In this document: in pieces, positions 1 to 58,521 of the stretch
How the letters are laid out: each line of letters starts with the position of its first letter
Numbering within the stretch: position 1 is the stretch's first letter
IMG/VR virus record: IMGVR_UViG_3300031754_000003
Span: 1 to 64,000 of that record
DNA: 64,000 nucleotides
Reading direction: 5' to 3' (one strand)
DNA from: a virus
The notes under the pieces: model-generated
What the model was told of the DNA's origin: nothing
The model's database searches: none
What the model saw: the letters and a program-made list of their open reading frames with translations, nothing else
Translations under genes and position numbers: made by a program

Positions 1-2
1 TT

Positions 3-479
3 GATCCAACGTGGCTCCATCGCGCGCAAGATGTGTTCTGGGGCGGCAAACTCATCGGGGGATACCTGTTCGCAACCGGCGACGACCCTAACTCACAGGT
101 GACATTGTTTCTGAGCACGGTTGAGAACGCTCTAGGTACGATGGCGCACCCTCGACTCAAACTCGCCGTGGACTATGAGGCGAACCCAGGGAACCAATGC
201 TCGCAAATGCAGGCTGAGCAGCTTGTTTCCGCGATTCGCCTGGCCACAGGGAAGCGCCCCTTGCTCTACATGGACTATTCCATGTGGCAACAGTCCCAAG
301 GCTCCGCGATCCTGATGGCTTGTGACCTGTGGTTAGCCGAGTACGGACCGATCGCAAAAGCCATATACAAGCTGTGGCAGTTCTCCGAGACCAACAATTT
401 TCCCGGCGTTCCCGGCAAAAGTGACATCAACCAATTCCTTGGCGATCTCCCTTCGCTGACCGCATGGTGGGCAACATGA
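3..479 (+). CDS. GH25-like muramidase (endolysin), 5' truncated by window edge
   Basis: The frame is open from the first bases of the window, so the N-terminus lies outside. The visible 158 residues fit the C-terminal two thirds of a glycoside hydrolase 25 lysozyme, which cleaves the beta-1,4 bond between MurNAc and GlcNAc. Supporting motifs are the acidic pair in LAVDYE (visible residues 55-59), the WLAEYG segment, and the closing LWQF...PG...DINQFLG, where GH25 proteins carry conserved W, D and N residues. The stop codon overlaps the next start (ATGA), and that gene is holin-like, which supports a lysis role. The family call is by motif only. Confidence 0.75.
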   Translation, partial: DPTWLHRAQDVFWGGKLIGGYLFATGDDPNSQVTLFLSTVENALGTMAHPRLKLAVDYEANPGNQCSQMQAEQLVSAIRLATGKRPLLYMDYSMWQQSQGSAILMACDLWLAEYGPIAKAIYKLWQFSETNNFPGVPGKSDINQFLGDLPSLTAWWAT

Positions 480-3405: not shown

Positions 3406-3932
3406 TTAGCAGCGAGCAGATGCGGGCTATTTGGACCGATCCTGATTATCGGGAACATTTTTCTCGCCAAACGGCAAAGTCTTGGCGAGATCCTGTGGTA
3501 CGGGCTCGTCGATTAGAGGGAATGAGACGTTCTGCGTCGCGAAAGTCAGCTCGTGTACGATTGGCATGGCAGCAGGGACGATACGCTAACAAGCCTAATC
3601 GAGGCGGCCGTCGTCTTCCTAGCATGACTACATATCAGAGAACCGTGTATGAGAAGGTACGTCGTGGTGGCGTTTCCTATTCAACCGCTCTAAAAATCGC
3701 TACAGCCATTCCAGTTGATGCCGTCCGCCCTCCCCGTGGAGGCTTCAAATACCGCCCCATTGCCGAGTTGGCTCCTGGCGAAACCTGCACTATAGCGCTC
3801 GATGACATGTCTTATGGACACGGCGATCAACGCAGAAATGTGTGTAGAGCCGTTAATCATCGAGCGCGCACTCTTGGCCGAATTTACACGATTCAGACTA
3901 TGCGCGATGGATTCATCGTGACTCGCGTATGA
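3402..3932 (+). CDS. Putative DNA-binding protein with NUMOD-like N-terminus
   Basis: 176 residues, very basic. The first 60 residues contain repeated W-x-DP-x-x-R elements (IWTDPDYREHF, SWRDPVVRARR) that resemble the modular DNA-binding repeats beside phage homing endonucleases (NUMOD type). No HNH or GIY-YIG catalytic motif is visible, so it may be a binding module only. A helix-turn-helix-like stretch lies near residues 75-105. Overlaps both neighbours by 4 bases. Confidence is moderate for the gene and low for function. Confidence 0.55.
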   Translation: MISSEQMRAIWTDPDYREHFSRQTAKSWRDPVVRARRLEGMRRSASRKSARVRLAWQQGRYANKPNRGGRRLPSMTTYQRTVYEKVRRGGVSYSTALKIATAIPVDAVRPPRGGFKYRPIAELAPGETCTIALDDMSYGHGDQRRNVCRAVNHRARTLGRIYTIQTMRDGFIVTRV

Positions 3933-4609
3933 CTCGTCTCGAAAAAATCGCAAAGCTAACGCGCGACGTCACAAGGCTGAGCCGTATGATGAATCATAAG
4001 CCTCCGCATGGTGAACTATCCTCCATCGAACGACAGGAACTTCAGTGCGAAATCGATCGGAAAGTCACCGAGTATCGGCGCGTTTATCGGAATAAGCATG
4101 CTTGGCTCGCCTTCGCGTTGGCTCTAGGCTCCCCCGCCGCTTATGCCGCGAGTCAGAGCGTTCAGCTCGATATCACCGTCCTGCCGTCAGGCTCGGGCGG
4201 CCCTGACATGTTTCAGCAACAATTGCTCAACCTGATCAACACCAGTCGCGCCGGTGGCGGTCTCCCGCCATATACGTTTAGTGCGGTTATGTCCAATGGG
4301 ACGGGTTCCTGTATAGGCTCGATCGGGAATTCGGAGAGCATGGCCCAGATGGGGGCCTTGAATAATCATGACCTGTTCCCAGGCGACGTGTGCGCTACTT
4401 GGTCTAGCGCGGGGGAAAACGAGGGTTGGTGGTCAGGGGTTAGTGAGGCGCAAGCCATCATAAACATACACAATTCAATGATGGCGGAAGGACCAAGCGG
4501 CGGCCACTACCAGAACATCATGAGTTCGTCCTTCACGACCGTAGGGCTTGGTCTGGTGGTAGACCACAACGGCGTGACGTGGCTCACGGAAGATTTCGTA
4601 CAACCCTAG
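3929..4609 (+). CDS. CAP-domain (SCP/PR1-like) protein with N-terminal helical extension and membrane segment
   Basis: 226 residues. Residues 1-56 are charged and helical, 57-74 form a hydrophobic segment ending AAYAA (signal anchor or late signal peptide), and 95-226 form a CAP domain. Family marks: LLNLINTSRAGGG at the start, GALNNHD (His147), GENEGWW (Glu163), GHYQNIM (His193) and the closing VGLGLVVDHNGVTWLTEDF. CAP proteins are exported and bind lipids, peptidoglycan or proteins. No in-frame ATG or GTG lies just before residue 57, so the extension is probably real. It is the last gene of the left rightward block and overlaps a convergent gene. Confidence 0.7.
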   Translation: MTRLEKIAKLTRDVTRLSRMMNHKPPHGELSSIERQELQCEIDRKVTEYRRVYRNKHAWLAFALALGSPAAYAASQSVQLDITVLPSGSGGPDMFQQQLLNLINTSRAGGGLPPYTFSAVMSNGTGSCIGSIGNSESMAQMGALNNHDLFPGDVCATWSSAGENEGWWSGVSEAQAIINIHNSMMAEGPSGGHYQNIMSSSFTTVGLGLVVDHNGVTWLTEDFVQP

Positions 4610-4809
4610 CGCGCGACAAGACGGATTCCGTTTGTCCCGAATGCTAGCGTCTTGGGTTCGCCGCCCACACGCACGTAGCATTCACCCGAAAATTCGTCCG
4701 CGCTGATGATATCGTCGCACGGCACATCACCGGTGCCGTTGAAGTAATCGGCACGCACTATCTTCCAACGCCGCTTCTCCGAGTCAGAGAACCACGATTC
4801 GATTTTCAT
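4606..4809 (-). CDS. Hypothetical protein
   Basis: 67 residues from the ATG at 4809, preferred over the ATG at 4815 because AGGGAA then has normal spacing. Acidic middle (DVPCDDIISADEFSGE) and beta-rich C-terminus. No family recognised. It is the last gene of the leftward early block and overlaps the CAP gene tail by 4 bases. Confidence 0.45.
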   Translation of the reverse strand: MKIESWFSDSEKRRWKIVRADYFNGTGDVPCDDIISADEFSGECYVRVGGEPKTLAFGTNGIRLVAR

Positions 4810-4856
4810 GAGCATTTCCCTACAGATCGAGTTCGCACTCTGGCACTACGGCAGAG

Positions 4857-5120
4857 TCATACATCCCTATGTCGATTATACGGCGGAGCCGCTGGTTTCG
4901 TGGCATGATCTTGGGATGCGATTCCAGTATTAATAGGATCGCTGACATGTTCCCGAACGATTATCCGACCGATCGTATCTCCAATTTCGTTGGAGTGCAG
5001 GATGAGCCCATCCTCATCTCCGAGGATATCGTCTAGAAACCATCGCTTTCCCTCAGGATCATCCCCATGCATTTGCTCAGCGTCGTAATACAACTCTATT
5101 ATCAGAGTTAGGCGATTCAT
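4857..5120 (-). CDS. Hypothetical protein
   Basis: 87 residues with a good ribosome site (GGAGGAG about 9 bases before ATG). N-terminal half starts with a beta strand (MNRLTLIIELYYD) followed by acidic loops; the C-terminus is low in predicted structure. No family recognised. It lies directly downstream, on the minus strand, of the structured region at 5233-5492, so that region could be its leader or an independent RNA. Confidence 0.5.
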   Translation of the reverse strand: MNRLTLIIELYYDAEQMHGDDPEGKRWFLDDILGDEDGLILHSNEIGDTIGRIIVREHVSDPINTGIASQDHATKPAAPPYNRHRDV

Positions 5121-5232
5121 CTTCTTCTCTCCTCCATCCGTTCGCTATCTGGGAAGTTCGCCCTTCTTTCATAAAAACTCATTTTCATTGTCAGCATGTC
5201 TTCTTCTCTTAGACATAATTATAGCCCTTTCC

Positions 5233-5492
5233 GCCTGCCTGATATGCGCCCGCTCCCGGGTAAGGCAGTGACCGTGTCCTTTGGTCATGGTGGCACACAG
5301 AGCCACCAGCGTACTCAGGGATGGACCCGTACCGCTCCTTAGCGGCGAATCCCCCACCTTGTGGGCCGCCTTGGTGCATTTTTTAGGCTGCACCGCGATG
5401 CAGGTTCGGACTCTGGCTGCATCGCCCTTTCACCCTCAAGCCTGAACGCAAGCTCAGGCAGGCCGCTCGTCCTATGGGCCACGGTTCCGAGC
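5233..5492 (-). ncRNA. Candidate structured non-coding RNA (about ten end-to-end hairpins)
   Basis: Perfect inverted repeats follow one another with almost no gap: 5235-5240/5263-5268 (enclosing 5249-5252/5257-5260), 5269-5273/5283-5287, 5288-5294/5302-5308, 5311-5314/5329-5332 with an inner GGG/CCC, 5332-5336/5341-5345, 5353-5357/5361-5365, 5373-5378/5389-5394, 5395-5403/5417-5425, 5440-5445/5454-5459 and 5465-5469/5488-5492. In addition 5233-5242 can pair over all 10 bases with 5454-5463, closing the whole element and competing with the local stems. The minus strand is favoured because its loops and linkers are purine-rich (GGAG, AAGG, AAG, AAAAAA, GAGGGTGAAAGG) and both flanking genes run that way. 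The ORF across it looks like a chance frame. A DNA-level role such as replication origin is the main alternative. Confidence 0.55.
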
Positions 5493-5535
5493 AATTTCGT
5501 ATGCGTTGGAATACAGGCTTTTCCTGGTAGTGGAT

Positions 5536-5721
5536 CTAGACCAAGCCATGCTCACGCAAAGCCGCAAGTTGTGCCATATCTAAGCGACGGGCCATGCGCG
5601 CCTTAACCTTACGCCATGCCGCGGCTTTAGATATCAGCTTGCTACCGCCGTTAGGCGTGTTACCCACCACTCTAATGCGAAAATTTGAACGATGGGATTT
5701 CCGCTTCACACGACGACTCAT
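5536..5721 (-). CDS. Small very basic protein
   Basis: 61 residues, with ribosome site GAGGAGGAAC 4 bases before ATG. More than a quarter of the residues are Arg or Lys (MSRRVKRKSHRSNFRIRV at the start), so nucleic-acid binding is likely. It lies between two regions dense in inverted repeats (5233-5492 and 5756-5900), so it might bind one of those RNAs; this is inference from position only. No family recognised. Confidence 0.55.
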   Translation of the reverse strand: MSRRVKRKSHRSNFRIRVVGNTPNGGSKLISKAAAWRKVKARMARRLDMAQLAALREHGLV

Positions 5722-5755
5722 CTAGTTCCTCCTCGACGGAAGCCGAGACGCTGAA

Positions 5756-5900
5756 GGACACATTACGGGGCTGTCCTCACTGACCGAGCCAGGATCTTGC
5801 GGAATGCTCTCGATCGTGTTATCTGATGATCGAGACCGAAACGTCGACTGGCGCGAACGTATTCGGAAGGCCCGAGTCAGCTAGTTACTGCTCGGGCCTT
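5756..5900. other. Intergenic region with three consecutive stem-loops
   Basis: The 230-base gap upstream of the basic gene holds three inverted repeats: GGACA/TGTCC at 5756-5760/5772-5776, an 8-bp stem at 5808-5815/5828-5835, and a 10-bp stem at 5867-5876/5891-5900. No convincing coding frame. Could be a long structured leader of the 5536-5721 gene, an mRNA-processing site, or a small RNA. Confidence 0.45.
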
Positions 5901-5908
5901 TCTCATTT
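5867..5908 (+). terminator. Candidate rho-independent terminator (plus orientation)
   Basis: Ten-base perfect stem AAGGCCCGAG / CTCGGGCCTT with a 14-base loop, followed on the plus strand by TCTCATTT. On the minus strand the downstream bases are CCGAATACG, which is not a terminator tail. The surrounding genes are all on the minus strand, so it would act on antisense transcripts or be a bidirectional processing hairpin. Confidence 0.5.
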
Positions 5909-5951
5909 ACGACACCTTGAACCGGAACGCAACGCCCCGCGTGAGATCGGC

Positions 5952-7091
5952 TCATTGCGTGCTCTCTCCGAGGTATGGTTGGCTATCCGGAGCGCGAATC
6001 AGCCAAGAGTCACGGACGTTGACCTTCACCAGCTTGCCTTCCGAGAGAAGATGATCGAGCGCACCGACGATATCTCCCCAGGAAACGTGTTGCCATTGTC
6101 GCTGGCTCGCGAGCTTTCCCGGCAGATAATTTGGACTCAAGGGATCAGCGGCAAACTTCCAGCCTAAGACGTCGGTAGCGTGCTTGACGGCCTTTACGAT
6201 TCGCAGCTGTAGATCCAACCTGCCGAGTGAGTCTAGAGGGTCGGGTTCCTCGCTCTCTCGGGGCACGAGAACACCCGAATCGTTCCAATAGAGGCTAATG
6301 CCTCGGCGCTTCAGCGGATGGTTGTAGGGAACATAATTGCCTTTCTCCACTTTCAGCACGAATTCTCCGTCAATATCTTTGCCGTTCTGATCCTTTATGG
6401 CTGAAAGGGATAGCGTGTGGCGAGCCGAATCTTCCCAGCGCTGGATTCCTGAGAAGTAGCTCGATCGATCTTTAGGCGGGTTACATAGCAATACGATGCC
6501 GGCCTGTAGTTCTCTTGCGCGAGAATTGAAAAAACGGATGAACGAATTGACGTGAATTGGGTTGTTGTGATCTCCGGAAAATACATTCTGCGCATTATCT
6601 AGGATAATCAATGTCTTGCGTTCTTCCTGACATCGTTGCTCGATTTGAGCCCATAGAGTCCGCGGTGTACCAGGCCCAAACTTTCTGAAGCAGCTGAAGA
6701 GTTCGAAATTGCCATCATCATTAGTCATTACCGAGACATCTATCAAACTCGGATAGCCGATCTCATAATAATCGCATATCTTTTCTTGGCGAGGCTGCAT
6801 CCTCGCTGCGGGATCTTCGGAATATAGACCGAAGGATTTGCTCTGTTGCACGGGCTGCCCTAGCCACTCCCCGCCAATTGCAGCGGCGGTTTGCAGCATC
6901 TGGCTAAGAAACGTCTTCCCAAACCCCGCTCTCCCCGCCAGGAGCGTCACCATGCCTCGGGGGATCAAGAAAGGTACTATGTCGTCAGCTGGTTCAGGAT
7001 CTACTCCCCACCAATCGATGAGGGAGGTTATCCGTTTATCGACATCTTCTACTGGGGTGGAGGGACGGAGTTTGAGTACGTTATTCGCCAT
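5952..7091 (-). CDS. RepA-like hexameric helicase (RecA-fold ATPase)
   Basis: 379 residues; ribosome site AAAAGGAGAC. RecA/AAA_25-type ATPase: Walker A GRAGFGKT at 53-60, Walker B LIILDNA at 161-167, and a sensor-like VLLCNPPKDRS near 203-213 as in RepA and RepA-like phage helicases. The C-terminal 100 residues look like a winged-helix region (WGDIVGALDHLLSEGKLVKV). Likely unwinds the phage origin and recruits host DNA polymerase III, since no phage polymerase is visible. It is the largest gene of the leftward early block, downstream of ParB-like and nuclease genes. Confidence 0.75.
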   Translation of the reverse strand: MANNVLKLRPSTPVEDVDKRITSLIDWWGVDPEPADDIVPFLIPRGMVTLLAGRAGFGKTFLSQMLQTAAAIGGEWLGQPVQQSKSFGLYSEDPAARMQPRQEKICDYYEIGYPSLIDVSVMTNDDGNFELFSCFRKFGPGTPRTLWAQIEQRCQEERKTLIILDNAQNVFSGDHNNPIHVNSFIRFFNSRARELQAGIVLLCNPPKDRSSYFSGIQRWEDSARHTLSLSAIKDQNGKDIDGEFVLKVEKGNYVPYNHPLKRRGISLYWNDSGVLVPRESEEPDPLDSLGRLDLQLRIVKAVKHATDVLGWKFAADPLSPNYLPGKLASQRQWQHVSWGDIVGALDHLLSEGKLVKVNVRDSWLIRAPDSQPYLGESTQ

Positions 7092-11874: not shown

Positions 11875-12342
11875 ATGGATAACGGAAATAAACATTGTTC
11901 ATTCTGTGGGAAATCGGAATCAGAAGTTTTCTATTTGATCTATGGACCTAAGGTCCATATCTGCGACGAATGTATATTACTCAGCGGTGATATCATTCAA
12001 GAAGCGCGCGATAGAGTAGAGCGTGGTGAGCCGAAGCGAGTGTTCCTTCGCTCCATAGATACGCGTGTGGTGCCGATCATTAAAACCAAAGTCACCACAA
12101 CCACGGAAGTGGAACTGGGGATTGAGACGGCGGCATCATGGTTCTGCGGATTGTCTGACGATGAAATGTCGCAATTCTTTTGTGCGGTTGCAAAACAGAT
12201 GATCGACGCTGCCGGTCCATGCCGCGCTGGTATGATGTGGTTCGCGACGGGGCGCCATTTAGCGATGTGCGAGTGTTCCACAGACGAGGGCAGAGAGATG
12301 ATCCGCGATATCTGGCTAGCGATCGATGCCCCTAATTTATGA
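11875..12342 (+). CDS. ClpX-type C4 zinc-finger protein with phage C-terminal domain
   Basis: 155 residues. Residues 8-33 are a ClpX zinc-binding domain: CSFC...VHICDEC, with Cys8, Cys11, Cys30 and Cys33 spaced as in ClpX. There is no AAA+ motor. Residues 85-155 form a separate domain ([43 protein letters not shown]) like those seen in other phage proteins. In ClpX this finger dimerises and docks adaptors such as SspB, so a free copy could compete with or bridge to ClpXP. Overlaps the YqaJ gene by 17 bases. Confidence 0.75.
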
Positions 12343-16922: not shown

Positions 16923-19286
16923 TTATTTCGGCAGGAGCAGCCTGCGGCGGGTGATGATACCATTCTCCTGGACGGCTTTGCTCATTCTCCATGCCGCCGC
17001 TATTGGCAGCAATGCACCGACACCAAGGAGCGGGAGATTGGGATTTGCGCTAGCTGCCGTCGTTCCATCAAATGCGCCAATGTTGTAGCCAGAGCCCACA
17101 CCGGTCGGTATCGAGTTGCCATAAAAGTCTTGTGGCCCAGGGTTGATCGAAAAAGTAGATAGCAGATCAATCCCCGTTCCTATCAACGGCGAGCCGGAGA
17201 GAAGATGGTAAGCAGTCGGGGCAGGAGGAATATACCCACCAACCGCTCCGCCGCTGCCGGCGCTCGTGAGTTGCGGGTTCCCTGACAAGCCGTGAGCTTC
17301 CTGGGAAGTTCCCGTCCGGATGGCAGCAAGAGTGGAGTACTGTGTGCCTTGCCACTCAAGAAGAAACCCGCCATTAGGGCTGTAATAACAATTACCATCC
17401 AGGACCCACGCATAGCTATCAGCGATAACATTCACACTCGTCTGGGTGTTGTAAAAAATGTTGTTATATACTGACCCACTAACTGCGCCAGACGATTGGT
17501 TTCCATAAAAACAACTAGCCCCAAACGTGCTGTTGTATACTGTATTATTGTAGACCTCGGCGCCACTTGTCGTGCCGCCAGACCCATAAACAAAGCATCC
17601 ATAACTTGGGAAGTTGCCATTCGCTCCGCAGTTCTCTGATATATTGTAGCGAATAACGGCTCCGGTGTTGTTTGCGCCGGCATAAGAAAACGCCATAAGT
17701 CCCGCGCCGACGCATTCATGCGCATAGCAATACTCTATGGTGCAGTTAACGCAGTCACCGTCCAGGTCGAACGCATCGCCATCTGTGCCGCTATTGCTGG
17801 AAATGTTGTACGCCTCGGAAAATTGCATGATGCTGCTGGTTGCATGACCAAATTGGAACCCAGCCGGGCCACTGGCCCCGGTGTTGTTCGCTCCGCAGTC
17901 GTGAGCTAGGCACCGCGTAATCGTCGCGCCGCTTACATTGATCAGCGCAAAGCCGCCGCCGCTCCAATAACCAACGGAAGTTCCGGAAACACCGGGGCAA
18001 TTACTCACCGAACAATCCGAGATCATCGGTGATGCAAAGTTGCGCGTAGTGCTTCCTACAACACCAGTAATATAAATACCGGATGTGGCTTGGTCAGCAA
18101 TGGCAGTGCCGCCGCAACAAGCCGTGACCGTACAATTCGAAATCGTTGGACCGGTGATAGCCACGCTATCGCTAGAGGACGTTACGTAGATACCGCATTG
18201 TCCGAAACCAGAAACTGTTAGCCCGCTTAGGATTATATTCGTACCTGTCCCTACGCCGCCCGTGAAGCTAGACCACACACCATTTTTCCCCGACGTATTA
18301 TCACCAGTTAACGTCAGGTTTTCTATCGTATAGCAGCTGATGTCGACCATCTCTATGCCGTGAGCACCAGACGGTGCGATCGTCGCGTTCCCGGTGCCGT
18401 AGCTGCCAATCGTCAAAATGTTCGTTGCGTTCGGCGGGTTCGAGGAATCGTAATTACTCAATCCAAAGCTCAGCCCCGCGTCCGTAAACGTTTGGCCTCC
18501 GTTAAAAAGGATTTGATCTCCTGACCGGAACATCTGGGAATTGACATGCCCAACAGTCTGCCACGGAGTCGATGTAGAAGTGCCATTGTTACTGTCACTT
18601 CCGGTCAATGACACATAATATGTGGTATCACTGGGAGGCGGGGGAGGCCCGGCTATGCCCAACGCGAATGACCACAGAGTGCCGCCGCTCGGGCTTCCTG
18701 TAGTCGCGGAAACGGCCTGTGTGTTACCTGACGAAGCTACCCACTCTGACAGCCAGGTGCTGCCGACATTTTGCACTTGAGTAAGCCCGGCTCCGGCGGT
18801 CACTCCGCCCGAACCAAGATCAACCGCATACCCTACAGCGAGCGCTGTATTTGACGAAATAATCGATGTCGACAGGGTCGATGCGCTGGTTGCAAAGACA
18901 GCCTGTTGACCCAAGGCCGAGACGCCCCCTGACGGAAATCCTGACCAGGCATCGATAATGACTACCGCAAAGGCTGCCGGACTACCTGCATCATAAATTG
19001 TGCCGGTTATCGTTGACGGCCCGTTGGTGATGGTTTCTGATGAGTAGAACCCCGCCCAATAATAGTTTGCAGCGGACGACGTATTGTACTGGGTGCCTAC
19101 GACAGTGTAATTATTACCCTTGTCGTCCGTTACACTCAGAAGGCGGGACGCTCCTGTATTCGGCCCAACCCAGCCAACGACTCCAGTTACTACCTGTCCC
19201 GAAGCAAGGGCGGAACTAAATGTCGCAGACGGAGTATCCCCACTCTGCCCGCTGTGCGTTGTACCCTGTACCCAAGCATACGTCAT
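16923..19286 (-). CDS. Right-handed beta-helix tail spike-like protein A
   Basis: 787 residues, no signal peptide. Residues 1-210 are a beta-sandwich (GSGGVTAGAGLTQ type strands), a PPPPPS linker lies near 215, and 220-740 form a right-handed beta-helix with repeated NCTVTACCG, GIYIT, IEYCYAHEC and NNTVYNS turns as in polysaccharide-degrading spikes. The last 45 residues end AAAWRMSKAVQENGIITRRRLLLPK and are shared with the next gene. Likely a virion spike or surface depolymerase. Last gene of the long leftward late block. Confidence 0.6.
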   Translation of the reverse strand: MTYAWVQGTTHSGQSGDTPSATFSSALASGQVVTGVVGWVGPNTGASRLLSVTDDKGNNYTVVGTQYNTSSAANYYWAGFYSSETITNGPSTITGTIYDAGSPAAFAVVIIDAWSGFPSGGVSALGQQAVFATSASTLSTSIISSNTALAVGYAVDLGSGGVTAGAGLTQVQNVGSTWLSEWVASSGNTQAVSATTGSPSGGTLWSFALGIAGPPPPPSDTTYYVSLTGSDSNNGTSTSTPWQTVGHVNSQMFRSGDQILFNGGQTFTDAGLSFGLSNYDSSNPPNATNILTIGSYGTGNATIAPSGAHGIEMVDISCYTIENLTLTGDNTSGKNGVWSSFTGGVGTGTNIILSGLTVSGFGQCGIYVTSSSDSVAITGPTISNCTVTACCGGTAIADQATSGIYITGVVGSTTRNFASPMISDCSVSNCPGVSGTSVGYWSGGGFALINVSGATITRCLAHDCGANNTGASGPAGFQFGHATSSIMQFSEAYNISSNSGTDGDAFDLDGDCVNCTIEYCYAHECVGAGLMAFSYAGANNTGAVIRYNISENCGANGNFPSYGCFVYGSGGTTSGAEVYNNTVYNSTFGASCFYGNQSSGAVSGSVYNNIFYNTQTSVNVIADSYAWVLDGNCYYSPNGGFLLEWQGTQYSTLAAIRTGTSQEAHGLSGNPQLTSAGSGGAVGGYIPPAPTAYHLLSGSPLIGTGIDLLSTFSINPGPQDFYGNSIPTGVGSGYNIGAFDGTTAASANPNLPLLGVGALLPIAAAWRMSKAVQENGIITRRRLLLPK

Positions 19287-21983
19287 CTAATAGAACCGGA
19301 GCAGCCTGCGGCGAGTGATCCTAGCGTTTTCCGCAACCGCTTTGCCAAATTTCCACGCGGCTGCCCCAAGTAGAGCAGGACGCCAGCCGATCATGTTCCC
19401 AACGCCCACCTTCGGAACGCCTTGATTACCGGCAGCTCCATAGGCCCCGACAGGGAATCCAGTATTCGATCCTTTTGGAATGCTGTTCCCGTAGTAGTCA
19501 TGAAGACCGGGAGTTATGCTGAACGAGGTAGAAAGGTTGATACCGGCCCCGAACATCGTTGAGCTGGATTGAAGCTTGTATGCAGAAAGAGCGCCAGGGT
19601 TGTAGCCGTTGGTCGTGCCGCCGCCGCCTGGGCTGGTGAGCGCGGGATCGGTCGAGAAACCGCCATTCGCAGTTTCCTGACCGCTATTAGTCTTCCATGT
19701 CGAGAACGTAGTGTAATTGGTCGGCCCCGTCCAATCGGCCGAGAACGTACCACTAGCATAATAATTATTCCCGTCCAGGTGTAATCCTGCCACACTAGGC
19801 GTGCCGGTGAAAGCCACCAACTTATTGGTACCAGTCGTGTAAAAGATGTTGTTACATATACGCCCACTTACGGTATTTGATCCAGATCCACCTATACCAA
19901 GCGCTGGATTTCCGGATGCGTATACCGTGTTATTATAGATGGCTAAACCAGTAGTAGTATTGCTATCTGCCCCCACTAGTATTTCCGGGTTCCCACTAGA
20001 AGACCTTCCGTTATTCTGACTTATACAATACCTAAACGTGATCCCAGAATTAGGAGCATAGCTAGAAAATAATAGAAACCCGTTTCCAGCATTATTATGG
20101 CTATAGCAGTACTGCACGACACAGTTAATAGATGCCTCTACATCGTATCCGTCACCATCGACGGTAAAGGAACCGTTTTTATTAAGATAACTCTCACAAA
20201 ATTGTATCACTCCTCCGCTAACCGCCGCCAGGAAGATACCGACTGGACCCGATATAGAAAATCCTGCGTTTGATCCATTATCGTGTGCAATACAATACTC
20301 AATAAGACACCCACATGAATTGCCATTCGCATCTGTTAATGCAGTGCCAGCAACTTGTTCCGCGAGAATGCCACCACCTGTCCAATCTGAGCTATTCGCT
20401 GCATTACCCGTGTTGTTGTACACAGTGCATCCAGTTATATGGACATTCGTGTTCGCAAATGACCCCGGAAGCCCCTGGATCTTAATCCCGCAGGTTTCAT
20501 TCAGCGCTGACCCGCCGGTGTTATCGTGTGATATACAGCCGCTGATAGTGACACTATCAAACCCCGACGTGGTGCTATTCAACCAAATACCATTGCCGCC
20601 AAACGCGCTGACGGTAAGATTTATCAACTGGAAGAAAGACAGCTGAGAGGCAATGCTATTTGTTATAAGTACCCCATCCGTGGTACTAGTCGCTATCCCT
20701 GGTCCGGTCACTATCAAGTTCTGCAGTACCAGACCCTGGACATTTAATGCGGAAATGCCGTGAGAAGAAGTGCTACTAATCGATATGGTAGCACTACCCG
20801 TGCCGTAGGAGCCGACCGTGAATGGATTGACGTTGGACCATGGAGCCCCGGTTCCGGCATTCGCAGTACCGAGAGCCAGCGCGGTAGTGAAGGTCTGCCC
20901 TCCCTGCAAGGATAGGGTATCACTACCGTTATACGTCTTGGTGAGCGCGAAGGCGAGCGTCGCCCAAGGCCCATTGGTGCCACTGGTGAATGTCGGTGAA
21001 GTCCCATTATTGCTGTCGCTACCAGCCGAGCTATCTACGTAATAATTAACGCCGCTGACGTGTACTGGCGTGTAGGCAATGCGGATGGCGCCCTGAGCGC
21101 CATTACCGCCGGCGCCGCGTGTAGTCGCTGCGCTTCCAGACCCCGCACCGCCGCCTCCATAAAGCCCACCAGCTCCACCGTCGGACCCAGTGGCGATTCC
21201 AGCCGCACCACTACTACCGCCGCCACCCCCGGAGCCATGAGATGCATCCCATTCTGTTCCAGCCCCTCCGGCCCCTCCGGCTGAAGCAAGGCTGGTAGAG
21301 TCACCAAACCCGCCACCACCGCCGCTTCCCGCAGATCCTGGCGCGCCGGCAACGCTAGAGCTACTCGATCCCGCTCCGCCGGGGGCGCCGATTTGATTTA
21401 GGAACGAGATAGAGGCGCCGCCGTTAGCCCCAGTGTTTGTCGCGCTAGTGGCACCATTGGCACCACCTCCATTAGCCCCGCCGCCAGCGCCACCGTTCCC
21501 GGTGGTCGCACCTCCCGTTCCTCCGGGACCGCCAGGACCGGCCGCTCCACCACCACCGGGGCCAGAGGCGCCACTACCCGCAGCGCCTGCGCCGCCCGTG
21601 TAAAGTGTGTCTCCGGTATGCCCTACCCCACCAGCTCCGGGAGTAGCCCCCACGGTGCCTCCGCCGCCGCCAGCCCATACGCTCGCGCCAGCGCCTGTAG
21701 TCCCATTGAACCAGCTATCAGTACCCGCGGTGCCATCAATACCGGTAACCCCAGCAGTGCCGCCAACTCCTGGTGAGCCGATTTGGTAAGTGGCAGTTCC
21801 ACCCGGAGTAAGGGATAGATTATTTTTTTTGGCGTACCCGCCTCCCCCGCCAGAAGAGCCGCCGTTACGTCCTCCACCGCCGCCCGCGATAACCTCTATG
21901 GAGTTGTTCGAGCTATTCCAATCGACAGGAACATTCCAAGTTTGGTTGCTCCCGGTTGGCGAAGTTAAAAATATAACGGTCAT
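19287..21983 (-). CDS. Glycine-rich plus beta-helix tail spike-like protein B
   Basis: 898 residues from ATG 21983, an ATGA overlap with the upstream gene; the in-frame start at 22016 would add 11 residues. Residues 1-20 begin MTVIFLTSPTGSNQTWNVP, 27-290 are a glycine-rich domain (GGGG and GAGG runs) as in phage tail-tip adhesins, and 300-850 form a beta-helix that is clearly paralogous to protein A (DGDGYDVEASINCVVQYCY, NNTVYASGNP). C-terminal residues repeat the ARITRRRLLRFY tail. The two genes are 1 base apart. Confidence 0.6.
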   Translation of the reverse strand: MTVIFLTSPTGSNQTWNVPVDWNSSNNSIEVIAGGGGGRNGGSSGGGGGYAKKNNLSLTPGGTATYQIGSPGVGGTAGVTGIDGTAGTDSWFNGTTGAGASVWAGGGGGTVGATPGAGGVGHTGDTLYTGGAGAAGSGASGPGGGGAAGPGGPGGTGGATTGNGGAGGGANGGGANGATSATNTGANGGASISFLNQIGAPGGAGSSSSSVAGAPGSAGSGGGGGFGDSTSLASAGGAGGAGTEWDASHGSGGGGGSSGAAGIATGSDGGAGGLYGGGGAGSGSAATTRGAGGNGAQGAIRIAYTPVHVSGVNYYVDSSAGSDSNNGTSPTFTSGTNGPWATLAFALTKTYNGSDTLSLQGGQTFTTALALGTANAGTGAPWSNVNPFTVGSYGTGSATISISSTSSHGISALNVQGLVLQNLIVTGPGIATSTTDGVLITNSIASQLSFFQLINLTVSAFGGNGIWLNSTTSGFDSVTISGCISHDNTGGSALNETCGIKIQGLPGSFANTNVHITGCTVYNNTGNAANSSDWTGGGILAEQVAGTALTDANGNSCGCLIEYCIAHDNGSNAGFSISGPVGIFLAAVSGGVIQFCESYLNKNGSFTVDGDGYDVEASINCVVQYCYSHNNAGNGFLLFSSYAPNSGITFRYCISQNNGRSSSGNPEILVGADSNTTTGLAIYNNTVYASGNPALGIGGSGSNTVSGRICNNIFYTTGTNKLVAFTGTPSVAGLHLDGNNYYASGTFSADWTGPTNYTTFSTWKTNSGQETANGGFSTDPALTSPGGGGTTNGYNPGALSAYKLQSSSTMFGAGINLSTSFSITPGLHDYYGNSIPKGSNTGFPVGAYGAAGNQGVPKVGVGNMIGWRPALLGAAAWKFGKAVAENARITRRRLLRFY

Positions 21984-23854
21984 GGAGAACTCCCCAGCAC
22001 ACAGGTGGGCCGCCAAGCGAACAGACCTGACACACCATCACCGGTGTAGGAAGCAACCGGCCCAGTCTCCGCTAATCCTACCGTCATGTCAGCAGATCCG
22101 GCGCCAAGATTGGCCACGCTGATTATGGCTCGCCACCACCCGCTTCCGATATTGTTGGTGCGCTGGACTAAACCCGTAGCCGTGCCACTGGTGCCAAAGT
22201 TAGCCATGGCACCACTCGTGTCTGCAAAAGCGTAAGCGCCACCAGTCGTTCCACCAATAGATATAAGGAGAAGACGTGTCGCTCCAGTTCCTAGCGCTTT
22301 GTAATATACTGCACAGGTGTAGGTTTGGTTATTTGGTATGGGTACGCTGCCATTATCTATCTCGTGGATGCCGTTTGCCGTGTTCTCTATTAATTTAACA
22401 GCGGTCGTCCCACTGTTTGGGTCTGTCTGCCCTCCTGTTGTGGCACTGTTGGTGGCCGTCCATCCGGTAGCGAAGCTATCGCCACCAGGGACAAGATTGA
22501 TCGGCGGGCCGCTCGAATACGAGTTCCCCAATACTACCTGAGTCCCACTCACGGTGTACGGGTAGTATGTCGTAGCACCCGCTGCCGTGTCGGGCGCGGC
22601 TGCTCCGGATGATACCGTGTAGCCCGTACCCCAAGTGATTGTTCCACCGCCGCCCGCGGTGCCCTGCTGAACCTCCATGAAGCCATGCTGCCCGTCGTGC
22701 GCATATACCGGATTGGTGATCGTGCAGGGGACGCATGAAGCCGATAGCACAAAGATATGGTTTGGCGAAAACTGAAAATCTGGCGCATTTGAAGCAACTG
22801 TGGCTCCAGGCAGATCGCTGATGGCTTGTAGGTAATGCGTCTTTTGTGGCCGCTGCCAATCGAGGGACGCCTCTGTCGTCGCATTATCGTAAGCGGCCGT
22901 GGCGCTATCTGCCGGAAAACCCTGATAATCAAGAATGCAATTACTGCAAGAGATCGAGCCGCCACCGCCGTTTGTGTTATCATATGTAGTGTTATAAAGG
23001 ACCGAAACGTCTCGGATAATCACATTGGACATACTGACGTTGTTGGTATTCCAAACTATGGCCGGACTCAAAGATACTGGGCCAGAGCACCTGGCGCTAA
23101 AGATAATCTGGTTACTACCAGACACATGTATACATATAATCTGACTGTTGTTTAAAGCAGTCATTATGTCATCAGTGCCGTCCGCAAAGTAATTAGAGTT
23201 ATTATCTTCGGCGCGCGTATTGGTGAACTGGTTGTTGGTGCAACCAATATCACAATCTATTCCTTGAGGTACCGCTGGCGATTCATAATCGGCGATTTGA
23301 TTGAACCTGCAGTTCACGCCGCAATACACCCCAGGCAAAGATCCCTCTAAGGCAAAGTTTGTTAGATTGATAAATCTGTTGTTCTGTGAACAGCACGACG
23401 CAGGATGGATGTTGACTGTCGTGGCGCAGCCAAAGTTCAGGTCCAGGAATAAGTTGCCGCTCGCCGGGTGGGTCGTCAGATCTAAACAGACGGTAGAGCT
23501 ACCGCCGAAAATAGAAAACCCCCGCAAGACATTGCTATTTCCCAGAATAAAGCACGATGCGCCGGAGCAACTAACCGACGTATTCTGCGTGCCGCTAGAG
23601 CTGTCCCAGCCCGTTCCCACTTGGCTGCCAAGGATCGCACACCCCGGGTATGGGCTCAGATCAATTGCAGATCCCCCCGCGGCAAACCCACCAGGTAGAA
23701 TGAAAATGGCCTTGCCGGTGGCGCACGACGGTAGTGCCGCATTCATCGCCGCCATGTCCGTGGTCGAATTGCCTGTCGGCGTGATGTATTGATAAGGATC
23801 TGTCGCATAGGCAGCCGGTGCGAGCAGCAAGAGGCACACACAAAGGAACTTCAC
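21980..23854 (-). CDS. Secreted beta-helix protein C1 with carbohydrate-binding-like C-terminal domain
   Basis: 624 residues from GTG 23854, chosen because it follows GGGGAAC and places the signal peptide (VKFLCVCLLLLAPAAYA) at the N-terminus. Residues 20-60 hold the repeat TDMAAMNAALPSC...AIFILPGG shared with the next two genes, then a beta-helix to about 330, then the LSASCVPCTITNPVYAHDG module shared with them. The last 150 residues (WTATNSATTGGQTDPNSG) resemble a CBM-like jelly roll absent from the paralogues. Probably exported. Confidence 0.6.
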   Translation of the reverse strand: MKFLCVCLLLLAPAAYATDPYQYITPTGNSTTDMAAMNAALPSCATGKAIFILPGGFAAGGSAIDLSPYPGCAILGSQVGTGWDSSSGTQNTSVSCSGASCFILGNSNVLRGFSIFGGSSTVCLDLTTHPASGNLFLDLNFGCATTVNIHPASCCSQNNRFINLTNFALEGSLPGVYCGVNCRFNQIADYESPAVPQGIDCDIGCTNNQFTNTRAEDNNSNYFADGTDDIMTALNNSQIICIHVSGSNQIIFSARCSGPVSLSPAIVWNTNNVSMSNVIIRDVSVLYNTTYDNTNGGGGSISCSNCILDYQGFPADSATAAYDNATTEASLDWQRPQKTHYLQAISDLPGATVASNAPDFQFSPNHIFVLSASCVPCTITNPVYAHDGQHGFMEVQQGTAGGGGTITWGTGYTVSSGAAAPDTAAGATTYYPYTVSGTQVVLGNSYSSGPPINLVPGGDSFATGWTATNSATTGGQTDPNSGTTAVKLIENTANGIHEIDNGSVPIPNNQTYTCAVYYKALGTGATRLLLISIGGTTGGAYAFADTSGAMANFGTSGTATGLVQRTNNIGSGWWRAIISVANLGAGSADMTVGLAETGPVASYTGDGVSGLFAWRPTCVLGSSP

Positions 23855-23864
23855 AGCCGTTCCC

Positions 23865-25214
23865 CTAATTATGAAATGACGGGCCGAGAACGATCGCATT
23901 TAAATCGGTCCTCACCACCCAGGGGAACCAGGTAGTCTTGTTAGCAGTTGACAGCGGCTGCGCGGTGTTCTGGTAAAAAGTGCCCCATGTAACCGTTCGG
24001 CCACCAGTCGAGTCCTGCGTGAACGCAAAGTATCCTCCCGTTCCATCCGCGAGGATGGTTGGGAATGGTAATGTACAGGGGCATGCAGATGTGAGCGCGA
24101 AAGTTTTGTTATAACCATTTTGGAAATCTGGTACAGCGAATGCTGATCCAGTTAATGTTATTGGTGCATACCCAACCGGATGCGTATATCTTACATAGTC
24201 CATGTCCGCTTCAGCCTGGGTGTTGTTGTAGAGCGGGTCCGTCCCGTTCCATGTGATATCAAGGTTACAATTCGACGAACACCCACCAGAACCGGTCTCC
24301 GCTATGATACCTGATCCGCTCCCGTTGTAGCCCCCGGAACACACGATACCGACCATTTGCACCAGATTCGTGCTTCCAGGAAAATCTACACAGTATTCGT
24401 TGGTTCCCCCATCACCGGCACAACGTATTCCACCGAAATCATACGCCCCAATTTTGATACAGGTTCCCCCATCAACAGACACGTCAGTGACCGGCCCCCC
24501 CGAGCCACCTGACATATCAAGCCCAATGGCGCCATGAGGAACACCGGTGACTGTTATTCTATTCCACGCATTAGAAAAGCCGCCGCCGTAAATACCGGCC
24601 GTAGTAGGCGAGATAACCGTCAAGTCCGAAAAGTACGCGTCCGTGGCATTGTCGTGGGTATACATCCCGTATCCATTATTGAGAAACGTTACGTCCACGA
24701 CCCGCATATTTTGCGCGCAGCAACCTGATGGATTGCCGTAGTTAATCCCTGCTCCGCAATTGCGGAAGATCATATGAGTTATCACCACGCCGCCAGTTGA
24801 ACTCTCCTCGTCGGCGCAATTAGTATTACTAAGTGGTGTACTTCCATTTCCGATGATCGTAAACCCAGTGATCACAGCGCTGGTGTTTAAGCCAAAACAC
24901 GGCACAGTATTGGCCAACCCTGAGCAGTCTACGACTGTGTTCTGCGTTCCAGCTGAGCTTGCCGTGGGACTTCCTGTAACTGGCCCAGATACCGTGCATC
25001 CGGCGGGCATATTGATAGTGAGCACGATCTTGAATGTGCCCTCTCCTAGAAACACGGTCTTTGGGGAGGCGCAGCTGGCAACGGCAGTGATCAGGTTGAT
25101 CGTATCAGTGGCCGGCACGCCGGTCGGCACGATGACATTATAGGGCTCTGTCGCTCTTGCCGGGACGACCGACAGCGCTATCCACATAAGGCTAATTATG
25201 AAACGACGGACCAA
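23865..25214 (-). CDS. Secreted beta-helix protein C2 (TTG start)
   Basis: 449 residues from TTG 25214, preferred since GGGAG lies 6 bases upstream and the product then begins with a standard signal peptide (LVRRFIISLMWIALSVVPARA before TEP); another TTG at 25238 is possible. Body: VFLGEGTFKIVLTINMP, beta-helix with many Cys pairs, DPLYNNTQAEADMDYVRYTHP and a closing C-terminal domain ending IVLGPSFHN. About the same plan as gene C3, so a recent tandem duplication. Cysteine richness fits folding in the periplasm. Confidence 0.6.
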   Translation of the reverse strand: MVRRFIISLMWIALSVVPARATEPYNVIVPTGVPATDTINLITAVASCASPKTVFLGEGTFKIVLTINMPAGCTVSGPVTGSPTASSAGTQNTVVDCSGLANTVPCFGLNTSAVITGFTIIGNGSTPLSNTNCADEESSTGGVVITHMIFRNCGAGINYGNPSGCCAQNMRVVDVTFLNNGYGMYTHDNATDAYFSDLTVISPTTAGIYGGGFSNAWNRITVTGVPHGAIGLDMSGGSGGPVTDVSVDGGTCIKIGAYDFGGIRCAGDGGTNEYCVDFPGSTNLVQMVGIVCSGGYNGSGSGIIAETGSGGCSSNCNLDITWNGTDPLYNNTQAEADMDYVRYTHPVGYAPITLTGSAFAVPDFQNGYNKTFALTSACPCTLPFPTILADGTGGYFAFTQDSTGGRTVTWGTFYQNTAQPLSTANKTTWFPWVVRTDLNAIVLGPSFHN

Positions 25215-26691
25215 GATTGATACTCCCGTTATTGCCAACTGCGGTCCATGGCCACCAGGTTGTCTTGCCGGATGTGTTAAGCGGCGCCGATGTATTCACA
25301 TAGATTCCATTCCAAGTGATGGCGCTGGCTACCGATGGAGTCGGCTGGGTGAACTCAATGTATCCGGTTTGACCATCGTGCACGTAGGGCGGCGCGGGCA
25401 ATGTGCAGGGGCACGATGACGTACCCGTCAGGCTGATATTGAAGCCGTTTTTTAGATCGGGGGCAGCGAACGTGCTGCTCGTTAAAGTCACCGCCGCATA
25501 CCCGATCGGGTGCATGAAGCGCTGCCAGTCGAAGTCCGTCTCGGCCTGGGTCGATCCGTAAAGGGGATCGGTCTGGTTCCACGATACATCGAAGGTGCAG
25601 TTTGTGCATCCTCCGGTAATCCCAGCCTCATGAAAGACGCTCGAACCCGTGCCGCTATACCCGGCGCTGCACAGCATCGCCGCAACCGAGATGGCGGAGG
25701 ATGCGGCCGACTCGAAATCGAGGCAGTAGTTGTTTGCTGAAGCACTCGCGCCGGCGCAGCGCACCGCGCTGACTTGAATATTAGACGCCCCGTTAAACTG
25801 TATACATGAGCCCTGGTCAGCTATCATGTTATTGATGACGTTGCCGGTGCCGAGCATCTTGATCCCGAAGCCGGTCCCGCCTAGCGTCTGCATCGTCAAC
25901 ATCGCGAAATTTGCTTTAGAGCAACCAACGTCGCAGAATATTCCGACCGCTGGCGCAAGCATGGTTACGTTCGTCACCTGGAGGTTGGTGCAGGTGGTAT
26001 GGCACCAGACCGGCGTTCCGACAGCCGCGAAGGTCACATCCATCAGCCGGTCGTTGAGCACCGCTCCGCTCGCCGACCCCACGTTGATCCCGTAGCCACA
26101 GTTCCGCATCACCATATGGAGCAGAGTGTTGCCACCGGTGTTCGTTGCCTCGTTGTCCACGCATACCGTATTCGACCCGGCCGTACTGCCGTTGCCGAGG
26201 ATCGCGAACCCAGTCAACGTATCGCTGTTGCCAAACTTGAAACAGACAGTGGTCGTGCTAAGCCCAGAGCAGTCAACGACCGTGTTCTGGACTCCATTTG
26301 ATCCAACGTACGGTGTTCCACTAATTGAACCAACGATCGTGCAACCGTCATGCCCAGTCAAATCAATAGTGTTACTGATCGTCCACGTGCCTTCAGAGAG
26401 GAATATCGGGTTGGTATTAGTGCATGTAGGAAGCGCGGCGGTAATAGTCGCATCAGTTCTTGGTGCCGCGCCGTTAGGAAGCACATTATACGTAGTCCCC
26501 CCGCCACCTGCCCCACCGCCGCACGCGCCCGATGCAAACCCCGTCAATACGCCGCTGGTATAGGTGGCGCATGATGGCCCCGTGGTGCAATTTGAGCCGC
26601 TACACGAACTTTCCAGAGTGATTGTACCCGTAGTCTGGGCATTAGCCGTCGTGACAAACAACAAACTGAGAATGAGATAAAAGATCAGCAT
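25192..26691 (-). CDS. Secreted beta-helix protein C3
   Basis: 499 residues from ATG 26691; the frame runs further upstream but only this start gives a signal peptide (MLIFYLILSLLFVTTANA, cleavage before QTT). Residues 20-60 are a small Cys module (ITLESSCSGSNCTTGPSCATY) that also occurs as a free gene just upstream. Then the beta-helix with PIFLSEGTWTISNTI, DPLYGSTQAETDFDWQRFMHP and the terminal INLGPSFHN. Three tandem paralogues (C1-C3) suggest receptor or substrate diversification. Confidence 0.6.
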   Translation of the reverse strand: MLIFYLILSLLFVTTANAQTTGTITLESSCSGSNCTTGPSCATYTSGVLTGFASGACGGGAGGGGTTYNVLPNGAAPRTDATITAALPTCTNTNPIFLSEGTWTISNTIDLTGHDGCTIVGSISGTPYVGSNGVQNTVVDCSGLSTTTVCFKFGNSDTLTGFAILGNGSTAGSNTVCVDNEATNTGGNTLLHMVMRNCGYGINVGSASGAVLNDRLMDVTFAAVGTPVWCHTTCTNLQVTNVTMLAPAVGIFCDVGCSKANFAMLTMQTLGGTGFGIKMLGTGNVINNMIADQGSCIQFNGASNIQVSAVRCAGASASANNYCLDFESAASSAISVAAMLCSAGYSGTGSSVFHEAGITGGCTNCTFDVSWNQTDPLYGSTQAETDFDWQRFMHPIGYAAVTLTSSTFAAPDLKNGFNISLTGTSSCPCTLPAPPYVHDGQTGYIEFTQPTPSVASAITWNGIYVNTSAPLNTSGKTTWWPWTAVGNNGSINLGPSFHN

Positions 26692-26915
26692 GGACCCGGA
26701 ACGGTGTTGGTTAAGATGCCGTTCGTGTGAACCAGACACGTTGGCGCTGGGACGCAGTTGGAAGTGTCGCAGGCGCTGACCATCGTGATGTTTATGGTCA
26801 TTCCAGACGGCGCCATATTTCCCCCGCCACCATGAGGGATTCTCGCCACGGCAGAGCCGGCAAGGCCTATGGCAATCAGCGAAAGCCAGAGCCAACGAAT
26901 TAAAATTGTGCCCAT
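26685..26915 (-). CDS. Small secreted Cys protein
   Basis: 76 residues with signal peptide (MGTILIRWLWLSLIAIGLAGSAVA). The mature part ends with ITMVSACDTSNCVPAPTC and a GILTNTVPGPC tail, aligning with the N-terminal Cys module of gene C3 (four Cys in the same spacing). It looks like a detached or ancestral copy of that module. Overlaps its neighbours on both sides. Confidence 0.55.
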   Translation of the reverse strand: MGTILIRWLWLSLIAIGLAGSAVARIPHGGGGNMAPSGMTINITMVSACDTSNCVPAPTCLVHTNGILTNTVPGPC

Positions 26916-27490
26916 ACGATGCTACCGCTAACCTGGGCAGCGGAGCTAACAAGCAGGCATACATTATCAGCCAGCGTTGCCGTCCGTGCGACAATACCCT
27001 GCCCATTGCCAAGTGTTAGCCCGCCATTAGATGCTAGATTCCATCCGGTCGCTGCGGTCGCTCCTCCCGCCATGCCAGCGACGCTAGTTGCACAGGCGCT
27101 GCCAGTCCCTTCAACAAGAGCAATGTTATCAGCCGTGCTCGTGATGAGGTTGATGCTGCAAACGTACGTCTGCTTACCAGAAGTCCCCGTGATGATCTGG
27201 CCGCTTGCTGTGATGCTAATCGGTGTCGAGGTCGTGTTCCCGACCGTGGCTCCGGCACACCCGGCCGTGATCGTAATCTGTCCCGACCCATTTATCCCCA
27301 GCGCGTTAACTCCGGCCGCATCGAGGATTTGATACTGAGGGATGAAGGCTCCGGAACTGCCACCAAAGCAAATCGTTTGTGTGGTGCCTCCGGCATCTTT
27401 AAGGGTCAAAGAAGTGCCGGGGCATGCAGCTACCGCCGCACTGCTGGCAAGAATCCAGATCAGTATCGCAAGAGAGAGAGAGCGTTTCAT
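26900..27490 (-). CDS. Secreted protein with conserved YVCS...VEGTG module
   Basis: 196 residues from ATG 27490 (ATGA overlap with the upstream stop), giving signal peptide MKRSLSLAILIWILASSAAVA. The C-terminal 90 residues (QTYVCSINLITSTADNIALVEGTGSAC, GWNLASNGGLTLGNGQG, DNVCLLVSSAAQVSGSI) are a module also found in the 51087-51935 gene. I recognise this pattern from structural-region proteins of other phages. Probably a beta-sandwich; function unknown. Confidence 0.6.
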   Translation of the reverse strand: MKRSLSLAILIWILASSAAVAACPGTSLTLKDAGGTTQTICFGGSSGAFIPQYQILDAAGVNALGINGSGQITITAGCAGATVGNTTSTPISITASGQIITGTSGKQTYVCSINLITSTADNIALVEGTGSACATSVAGMAGGATAATGWNLASNGGLTLGNGQGIVARTATLADNVCLLVSSAAQVSGSIVWAQF

Positions 27491-27651
27491 CGGACCACCG
27501 CCGTTATGCTGTTGCATATGTTTGTCCAATCAAAGACCAGGTTTGTAGAGCACGACCCGCCGCCGCCGCTCGTGGGTGCCATTGTAAGATTGGCATGCCC
27601 CAAGGCAATGCCGCTGAGGATCGCAGCAACTATGAGAAGCAAGCGTATCAT
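27487..27651 (-). CDS. Very small secreted protein
   Basis: 54 residues read directly; start ATG 27651, stop overlapping the next ATG. Signal peptide MIRLLLIVAAILSGIALGHA, then NLTMAPTSGGGGSCSTNLVF. The NLT-APTS-GGG start of the mature part is shared with the 28591-29562 gene, so this may be a truncated copy of that protein's N-terminal module. Two cysteines remain. Confidence 0.5.
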   Translation of the reverse strand: MIRLLLIVAAILSGIALGHANLTMAPTSGGGGSCSTNLVFDWTNICNSITAVVR

Positions 27652-27652
27652 A

Positions 27653-28597
27653 TTACTGCCATACCTGGATTGATTTGATCACAGTCGTCTGACCGCTACC
27701 GCTTGATACGTTGATACAGTTGTGCTGCGTGAGCGCTTGATTGATCTGATCGCCGGTCGTGAAGTTGACCGTGTTCGGTGTTGTGGGATTGAGTGTTTCG
27801 GGTGTCGAGGTATTCGCAGCAAAGTAGCCAGCGAAGAAGCCGGTCCCGCCATTTTGCGCCGGGGAGACGAGTAGCGTCCCATAGACTTGACCAGCGTGGT
27901 TGCCGCCGCCGCCTTGATCGCGTTGATACGCATGATTGACCTGAGCTGGGGTATTCCAATTCGGGCTAGGTAACCAAGAGACGATGTCAGCTACCCACGA
28001 GCCATCTGCCAGTAGCGATTCAAAGGTATCTATCTCCGTCATGCTGGCCACCCCTGGTGCCGCAGCAGAATAGTATTCGGTCGGTAACATCCATGGGAAC
28101 ACCGGCCACCAACCAGTCCCCCCGGATCTACCTGATGGAGCCGATCCTATCACGGTCTTGATATAGAAAGGCCCGGTGATGGTCGTGCCTATCCACTGCC
28201 CCGCGGTGCCGTTTGTGATGCAACTCGTGAGGTCGATGCCTGGGTTGCTGGTGTCGCTGCCGGTCGTTAAGATCTGGATGCCACCGCCGGCCGCGGCTGT
28301 GTACCAGCTTCCTGGCGTTGGAGGGTCTGTCTGTCCAGCGGTGTTTCCCGAGTAGAGTCCAGGCCATCCGATCCTCCTATAGAGCAAATACCCAGGATTG
28401 CCCGTATTGCTGACGTCTACTTGGCTGATATTATTGAGACAGTAAACCTCGTGTGTGTAGCCCCACGTTACGGCCGGTGCCGGGATCGAGTCGGTACAAG
28501 CCAAGGACGGCGCCCCTCCCCCGCTGAAAACCGTCTTCTCTTGCGCGATGGACGCAATCAGGAGCAAGCAAAGCGCGAGACCGAGTACCCTTAGCAT
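27653..28597 (-). CDS. Secreted GH16-like protein, possible polysaccharide-degrading enzyme
   Basis: 314 residues from ATG 28597, with signal peptide MLRVLGLALCLLLIASIAQ. Residues 105-310 resemble the GH16 jelly roll: GPFYIKTVIG, WWPVFPWMLP, then EIDTFES with the E-x-D-x-x-E catalytic pattern (Glu188, Asp190, Glu193), and a final beta strand TTVIKSIQVWQ. GH16 enzymes cut beta-glucans, agar or carrageenan. Length and the N-terminal region are atypical, so the assignment is by motif and fold pattern. Confidence 0.5.
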   Translation of the reverse strand: MLRVLGLALCLLLIASIAQEKTVFSGGGAPSLACTDSIPAPAVTWGYTHEVYCLNNISQVDVSNTGNPGYLLYRRIGWPGLYSGNTAGQTDPPTPGSWYTAAAGGGIQILTTGSDTSNPGIDLTSCITNGTAGQWIGTTITGPFYIKTVIGSAPSGRSGGTGWWPVFPWMLPTEYYSAAAPGVASMTEIDTFESLLADGSWVADIVSWLPSPNWNTPAQVNHAYQRDQGGGGNHAGQVYGTLLVSPAQNGGTGFFAGYFAANTSTPETLNPTTPNTVNFTTGDQINQALTQHNCINVSSGSGQTTVIKSIQVWQ

Positions 28598-58351: not shown

Positions 58352-58521
58352 GACCGCCTCCCCATCAGATTAAGAACCCCCGATACGCGTTCCATTTTAG
58401 CTAATTTCTGTTTTACCCCAGGAGGAAACTGAAATAGAGACCCATCCGCTCGGCGCCATACCGTAGGACCAATCTTGACCCACCCATCTTCCTCGGGATC
58501 GATCTCACGAATGACAATCAA
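58348..58521 (-). CDS. Small conserved protein (TTG start)
   Basis: 57 residues from TTG 58521, which overlaps the terminase stop as TTGA. Starts LIVIREIDPEEDGWVKIGPTV and continues VWRRADGSLFQFPPG, a beta-rich small domain common after large terminase genes. Ends MGRRS. Coupled to terminase and to the ATA-start gene, overlapping it by 4 bases. Confidence 0.55.
   Translation of the reverse strand: MIVIREIDPEEDGWVKIGPTVWRRADGSLFQFPPGVKQKLAKMERVSGVLNLMGRRS

Follow-up and report, generated by a model that had tools for sequence, protein, structure and literature searches.

Positions 5229-5464 of the phage genome analyzed here form a real, non-random and orphan structured element, whose minus strand may encode a structured non-coding RNA derived from an early transcript, a reading to which we give even chances. 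It builds on computed features, namely the density of hairpins, their fold, a definiteness of that fold seen on the minus strand only, a position in a non-coding gap and collinear flanking genes. The initial annotation, made from the letters alone, had pointed out a dense array of end-to-end hairpins at 5233-5492 as a candidate structured phage RNA. That the element goes beyond chance, and that its minus strand makes the better RNA, both stood up to analysis; the choice of an RNA over an element of a DNA origin came out moderately supported.

The window, that is, the whole 64,000-nt stretch of DNA that was analyzed, represents most of IMG/VR record IMGVR_UViG_3300031754_000003 (69,825 bases). 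The record is classed as linear in IMG/VR. Window 1-156 recurs at the other end of the record (69670-69825) with a single mismatch over the 156 nt, and this overlap makes it probable that the genome is complete and circularly closed. It is that of a tailed phage, with a terminase large subunit of conventional type (58518-60113, phrog_38), a portal of the head-tail adaptor family (56333-58126) and a major head protein (53305-54363). The element sits in a 415-nt non-coding gap (5121-5535) of an early minus-strand operon. As first noted, the flanking genes are collinear with the minus-strand element: both neighboring ORFs lie on that strand, and each has a clear Shine-Dalgarno sequence. The genes that matter for what follows are these:

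4857-5120, minus strand: small ORF of 87 aa, downstream of the element, with GGAGGAG ahead of its ATG
5536-5721, minus strand: small basic ORF of 61 aa, upstream of the element, with AGGAGG ahead of its ATG
5952-7091, minus strand: gene for a RepA-like AAA_25 helicase, in the same operon (Pfam AAA_25, E 1.7e-17)

The helicase shares 30% identity with RepA of Wolbachia phage WO. The 61-aa ORF had no family match and no match in the phage search, and the 87-aa ORF had a single weak phage match (E 8e-4). In the direction of transcription, the 87-aa ORF and then one of 69 aa follow the gap. The element begins ~490 nt beyond the helicase stop codon, with the 61-aa ORF in between, and ends 108 nt ahead of the next Shine-Dalgarno ATG. 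Neither a sigma-70 promoter nor an intrinsic terminator was found at the element.

The inverted repeats with stated coordinates that were checked all proved exact. This holds for the long-range 10-bp inverted repeat 5233-5242/5454-5463, for the local repeats 5235-5240/5263-5268 and 5440-5445/5454-5459, and for the end-to-end abutments at 5268/5269, 5287/5288 and 5394/5395. Further exact inverted repeats were found at 5269-5273/5283-5287, 5288-5294/5302-5308, 5332-5336/5341-5345, 5353-5357/5361-5365, 5373-5378/5389-5394 and 5395-5403/5417-5425. Hairpins were then counted if perfect and non-overlapping, with a stem of at least 5 bp and a loop of 3-13. For 5229-5464, this gave seven hairpins within 5269-5459, comprising 86 stem bases. 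Shuffles of the 236-nt element had a mean of 2.1 stems and 23 stem bases, and the observed stem-base count was reached by none of 2,000, which confirmed that the dense array is real. Its hairpin density was also the top value among all 236-nt windows of the 64 kb, the runner-up having 66 stem bases. These figures bear on the possibility that the array arose by chance or is a remnant, that is, a degenerate cluster of palindromes derived from a mobile element or repeat and devoid of present function. The lack of a homologue in anything searched would fit such a source, as would the internal repeats of the element, of which there are two, both partial, of 11 and 16 nt; seven perfect stems in 236 nt do not, as perfect stems are short-lived without selection. 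We therefore hold chance or a remnant to be very improbable.

Folded as minus-strand RNA, 5229-5464 had a minimum free energy (MFE) of -117.2 kcal/mol (z -4.45), and none of 200 shuffles was as stable; the plus-strand RNA of the 236-nt element reached z -2.77. For the full 260-nt span, the excess of folding energy over shuffles was borne out on the minus strand (z -3.8), but amounted to only z -1.6 on the plus strand. In dinucleotide-corrected folding energy, the minus-strand element ranked first of ~6,400 windows from both strands, in a comparison for which its boundaries were chosen and the remaining windows were placed on a 20-nt grid. Positional entropy and ensemble diversity of the minus strand lay below those of all 400 shuffles (diversity 13 vs 56 in shuffles), whereas the definiteness of the plus-strand ensemble was ordinary, with 158 of 400 shuffles at or below it. 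Stability and definiteness thus both exceed those of dinucleotide shuffles, as generally asked of a structured RNA.

The predicted architecture, all on the minus strand, is as follows:

5229-5464, minus strand: core element, predicted multi-branched RNA of 76-77 base pairs (MFE and ensemble)
5454-5463 (5' strand) with 5233-5242 (3' strand), minus strand: P1, 10 bp, perfect inverted repeat, probability ~1.0
5430-5450 (5' strands) with 5245-5262 (3' strands), minus strand: P2-P4, of 7, 4 and 5 bp, including four G-U pairs
5395-5425, minus strand: P5, hairpin of 9 bp with a 13-nt loop (perfect repeat, pair probabilities)
5373-5394, minus strand: P6, hairpin of 6 bp, flush with P5
5366-5371 (5' strand) with 5263-5268, minus strand: P7, 6 bp, pair probability ~0.9
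5353-5365, minus strand: P8, hairpin of 5 bp with an AAG loop
5323-5352, minus strand: P9, hairpin of 12 bp with a bulge and an AAGG loop (pair probabilities)
5288-5308, minus strand: P10, hairpin of 7 bp with a 7-nt loop
5269-5287, minus strand: P11, hairpin of 5 bp with a 9-nt loop, flush with P10 and P7
5465-5492, minus strand: upstream hairpin beyond the closed element and inside the 260-nt span; it folds separately, and the core is independent of it

P1-P4 are predicted to form a broken closing helix of 26 bp. The pair probabilities of P2-P4 range from 0.68 to 1.0, and as a continuous helix they are missing from the plus strand. A four-way junction is predicted between P4, P5, P6 and P7, with P5/P6 and P7/P4 as flush pairs. 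P7, flush with P4, would close a five-way junction of P7-P11, in which only P9 and P10 are set apart, by a 14-nt single strand, and the other helices are flush. The fold has six flush helix junctions against 2.5 in shuffles, of which 16 in 400 reached six; the folding energy model used gives flush helices no explicit coaxial bonus. A loop-loop complementarity between CAGA of P5 and UCUG of P10 was judged likely to be due to chance and left uncounted.

For the candidate RNA, we infer transcription, processing, action in trans and a partner. Its source would be the transcript of the early minus-strand operon, in which it lies between two small protein genes. The P1-P4 closing helix would shield it from exonucleases and would offer RNases a cutting place to free it. 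With its four-way and five-way junctions and mostly flush helices, the RNA would adopt the shape of a compact particle acting in trans, whose presumed partner, bound in early infection or in replication, is a protein of the phage or of the host. More tentatively, the element could represent a new class of phage RNA, ~236 nt long, built of stacked four- and five-way junctions and encoded next to the replication helicase, that serves replication initiation or host takeover, e.g., as an RNA-based origin or as part of a replication RNP; this extension we regard as doubtful.

The initial annotation had also suggested a conformational switch between P1 and a local hairpin at 5440-5459. This was not upheld: P1 forms with a probability of ~1.0 and forcing the local hairpin costs 13.7 kcal/mol, whereas a riboswitch would have two conformations of similar energy. 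Since the 5' part folded alone does form the local hairpin, the latter may exist briefly, as a co-transcriptional intermediate. The same energy penalty speaks against a cis-acting role, in which the array would be a leader or a processing/stability element of the early mRNA, tuning the 87-aa and 69-aa genes relative to the upstream helicase in the manner of the intercistronic hairpins of polycistronic phage mRNAs. The collinearity with the operon, the distance of 108 nt to the next Shine-Dalgarno ATG and the lack of a promoter of its own suit this role. However, the fold stops short of the downstream ribosome site, there is no competing terminator, and a 236-nt double-junction fold exceeds the needs of an intercistronic hairpin. 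On balance, we consider a cis-acting element unlikely.

Coding was assessed by codon use. Frame 5169-5393, named in the initial annotation, has no Shine-Dalgarno sequence and a codon score below zero, and the remaining frames of the stretch scored below zero too, apart from a 56-aa frame at 5209-5379 on the minus strand. The latter has gene-like codon use (0.113 bits per codon, inside the range of known genes), but it has no Shine-Dalgarno sequence, and the score is unreliable at such a length, the 61-aa ORF with its strong Shine-Dalgarno scoring -0.17. That a small protein is encoded here and the hairpins are incidental is thus hardly credible.

A more serious question is raised by DNA. Folding of the 236-nt element as single-stranded DNA gave z -3.9 for the minus strand and z -4.4 for the plus strand, both unusually stable because palindromes fold on either strand. 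For this reason, the stems alone do not show RNA to be the active form. Moreover, neither a family A nor a family B DNA polymerase was found in the record; the phage therefore probably relies on the replisome of its host and requires an origin, which makes an origin role of the hairpin array the main rival. Under this explanation, the array would be part of a replication origin, where DNA that is single-stranded or under negative supercoiling forms hairpins for the loading of a primase or of the RepA-like helicase. The position downstream of the helicase gene agrees with it, as does the stability of the single-stranded DNA, and we leave it a modest chance of being correct.

We compared 51 loci (L237-L287) with distant relatives of the AAA_25 helicase (best 29% identity), scoring as iteron-like any 400 nt with four or more copies of one 8-mer. 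The 400 nt that begin at the helicase stop codon hold such an array in 24/46 loci of distant relatives; at nearly all other offsets within several kilobases, the same criterion picked out 0-3 loci. The word differs from phage to phage, as illustrated by the arrays at L263:4489-4674 and L247:4537-4699. These arrays, placed directly past RepA-like AAA_25 genes, are probably replication origins of the iteron kind. Present in about half of these distant phages, they offer a simple predictor of origins. Some of the relatives show strong hairpins past the gene, which adds to the case for an origin, but hairpin density at the corresponding position is only slightly raised. The region of the window itself is without iteron-like repeats, its largest 8-mer count being 2. 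Furthermore, the 61-aa ORF with its Shine-Dalgarno sequence separates the array from the helicase gene, and a definite fold is confined to the minus strand. In L263 and L247, the strong folds that follow the helicase gene were traced to iteron-like direct and inverted repeats and not to a related RNA.

A perfect 10-bp GC-rich palindrome, AAGGCCCGAG/CTCGGGCCTT, lies at 5867-5900, between the helicase gene and the array. Followed by TTTCTCATTT on the plus strand, it looks like a terminator for plus-strand transcription, yet it lies inside a minus-strand operon. On the minus strand, folding of the 230 nt around it (5722-5951) gave z -2.7.

In a further comparison, the Watson-Crick stems were retained while the remaining bases were permuted. 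The energy gap between minus and plus strands was then equalled in 5 of 400 permutations and the ensemble diversity of the minus strand in 15 of 400; the minus strand had no extra stability beyond that of its stems (152/400). Of the bases left unpaired on the minus strand, 67% are purines, in agreement with the purine richness reported at the outset. Collectively, ensemble definiteness, stems-fixed asymmetry and purine bias favor a minus-strand RNA with moderate strength. Counted against it were the lack of a homologue, of a promoter and of a terminator in our searches, the stability of single-stranded DNA of both strands and the lack of gain beyond the stems.

The search for known RNA classes agreed with the initial view that the element is not a tRNA, tmRNA, RNase P or group I/II intron. 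Rfam gave no gathering-level match in the window and, over 4800-5900, none even with E relaxed to 10; with all families of Rfam 15, including GOLLD, ROOL, OLE and pRNA, the element did not reach the gathering threshold, and ARAGORN found no tRNA or tmRNA gene in the window. Blastn in distant mode against phage and plasmid collections returned nothing relevant to the element. The IMG/VR relatives taken shared 51-64% identity in TerL or 35-54% in MCP. A DNA search of 46 TerL-related records gave no match to the element. A covariance model of the element, R1, found no relative in the TerL-, MCP- and helicase-related records (~125 including the window's own), although R1 is a single-sequence model that distant homologues could escape, so this negative is weak evidence of absence. 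R1 was likewise silent for relatives of the AAA helicase, the best of which reaches 29% identity along most of its length, both in their loci and in the whole records. Exact loop and junction patterns searched in viral and genome contig collections yielded no match confirmed by R1. Of the full relatives, G051 (67 kb) is the closest; it has only structural genes in common with this phage and does not share the early module.

Other candidates were set aside. At 5826-5850, the CUGAUGA ... GAAA of a hammerhead ribozyme is present, but, as read by eye, stem II is unpaired, and Rfam was silent. A retron msr-msd was rejected, as no reverse transcriptase was seen among the scanned proteins, and so was a CsrB-type sponge, the GGA count (by hand) matching the expectation from composition.

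To our knowledge, few structured RNAs are known in dsDNA phages, and most of them have no assigned function. Phi29-type pRNA is a compact junction RNA with a terminal closing helix; it is shorter than the candidate RNA, has a three-way junction and is tied to phi29-type packaging ATPases, whereas the phage studied here has the conventional terminase large subunit phrog_38. GOLLD and ROOL are ornate RNAs of phages and prophages, ~660 to >800 nt long, often located near tRNA islands, and they form cages (PMC12286853). The candidate resembles them as a phage-encoded, non-coding multi-junction RNA of unsettled function (PMC12286853). In contrast with them, it has 236 nt, no tRNA nearby and no match to an Rfam model.

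Replication systems offer other likenesses. Extrachromosomal mycobacteriophage prophages have RNA-based origins, which adjoin parABS and come without repA (PMC7157519). In those phages, which may start replication with RNA, a transcribed non-coding region lies in the replication or partition neighborhood (PMC7157519), a setting similar to that of the candidate. The present element, in contrast, adjoins a RepA-like helicase gene, and its transcription is only presumed. Hairpins in single-stranded DNA make up the ssi sites of RSF1010. In the archaeal plasmid pRN1, a sequence downstream of the replication gene is part of the minimal replicon (PMC4234260). The element differs from both in its seven hairpins, its long-range closing helix and its definite fold on one strand only. 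If transcribed, it would constitute a new fold unrelated to any Rfam family, and the phage encoding it has a RepA-like helicase but lacks DNA polymerases of families A and B. It would then be a tangible starting point for finding out whether RNA serves replication or takeover in such phages.

Elsewhere in the window, seven large minus-strand ORFs (323-909 aa) at 16923-29562 had no PHROG match, and several of their starts are signal-peptide-like. An early gene of only 155 aa (11875-12342) encodes a ClpX-type C4 zinc finger (E 2.2e-15) without the ATPase part of ClpX. Last, a plus-strand gene at 3929-4609 carries a CAP (cysteine-rich secretory protein) domain (E 6.9e-5), which is unusual for a phage.
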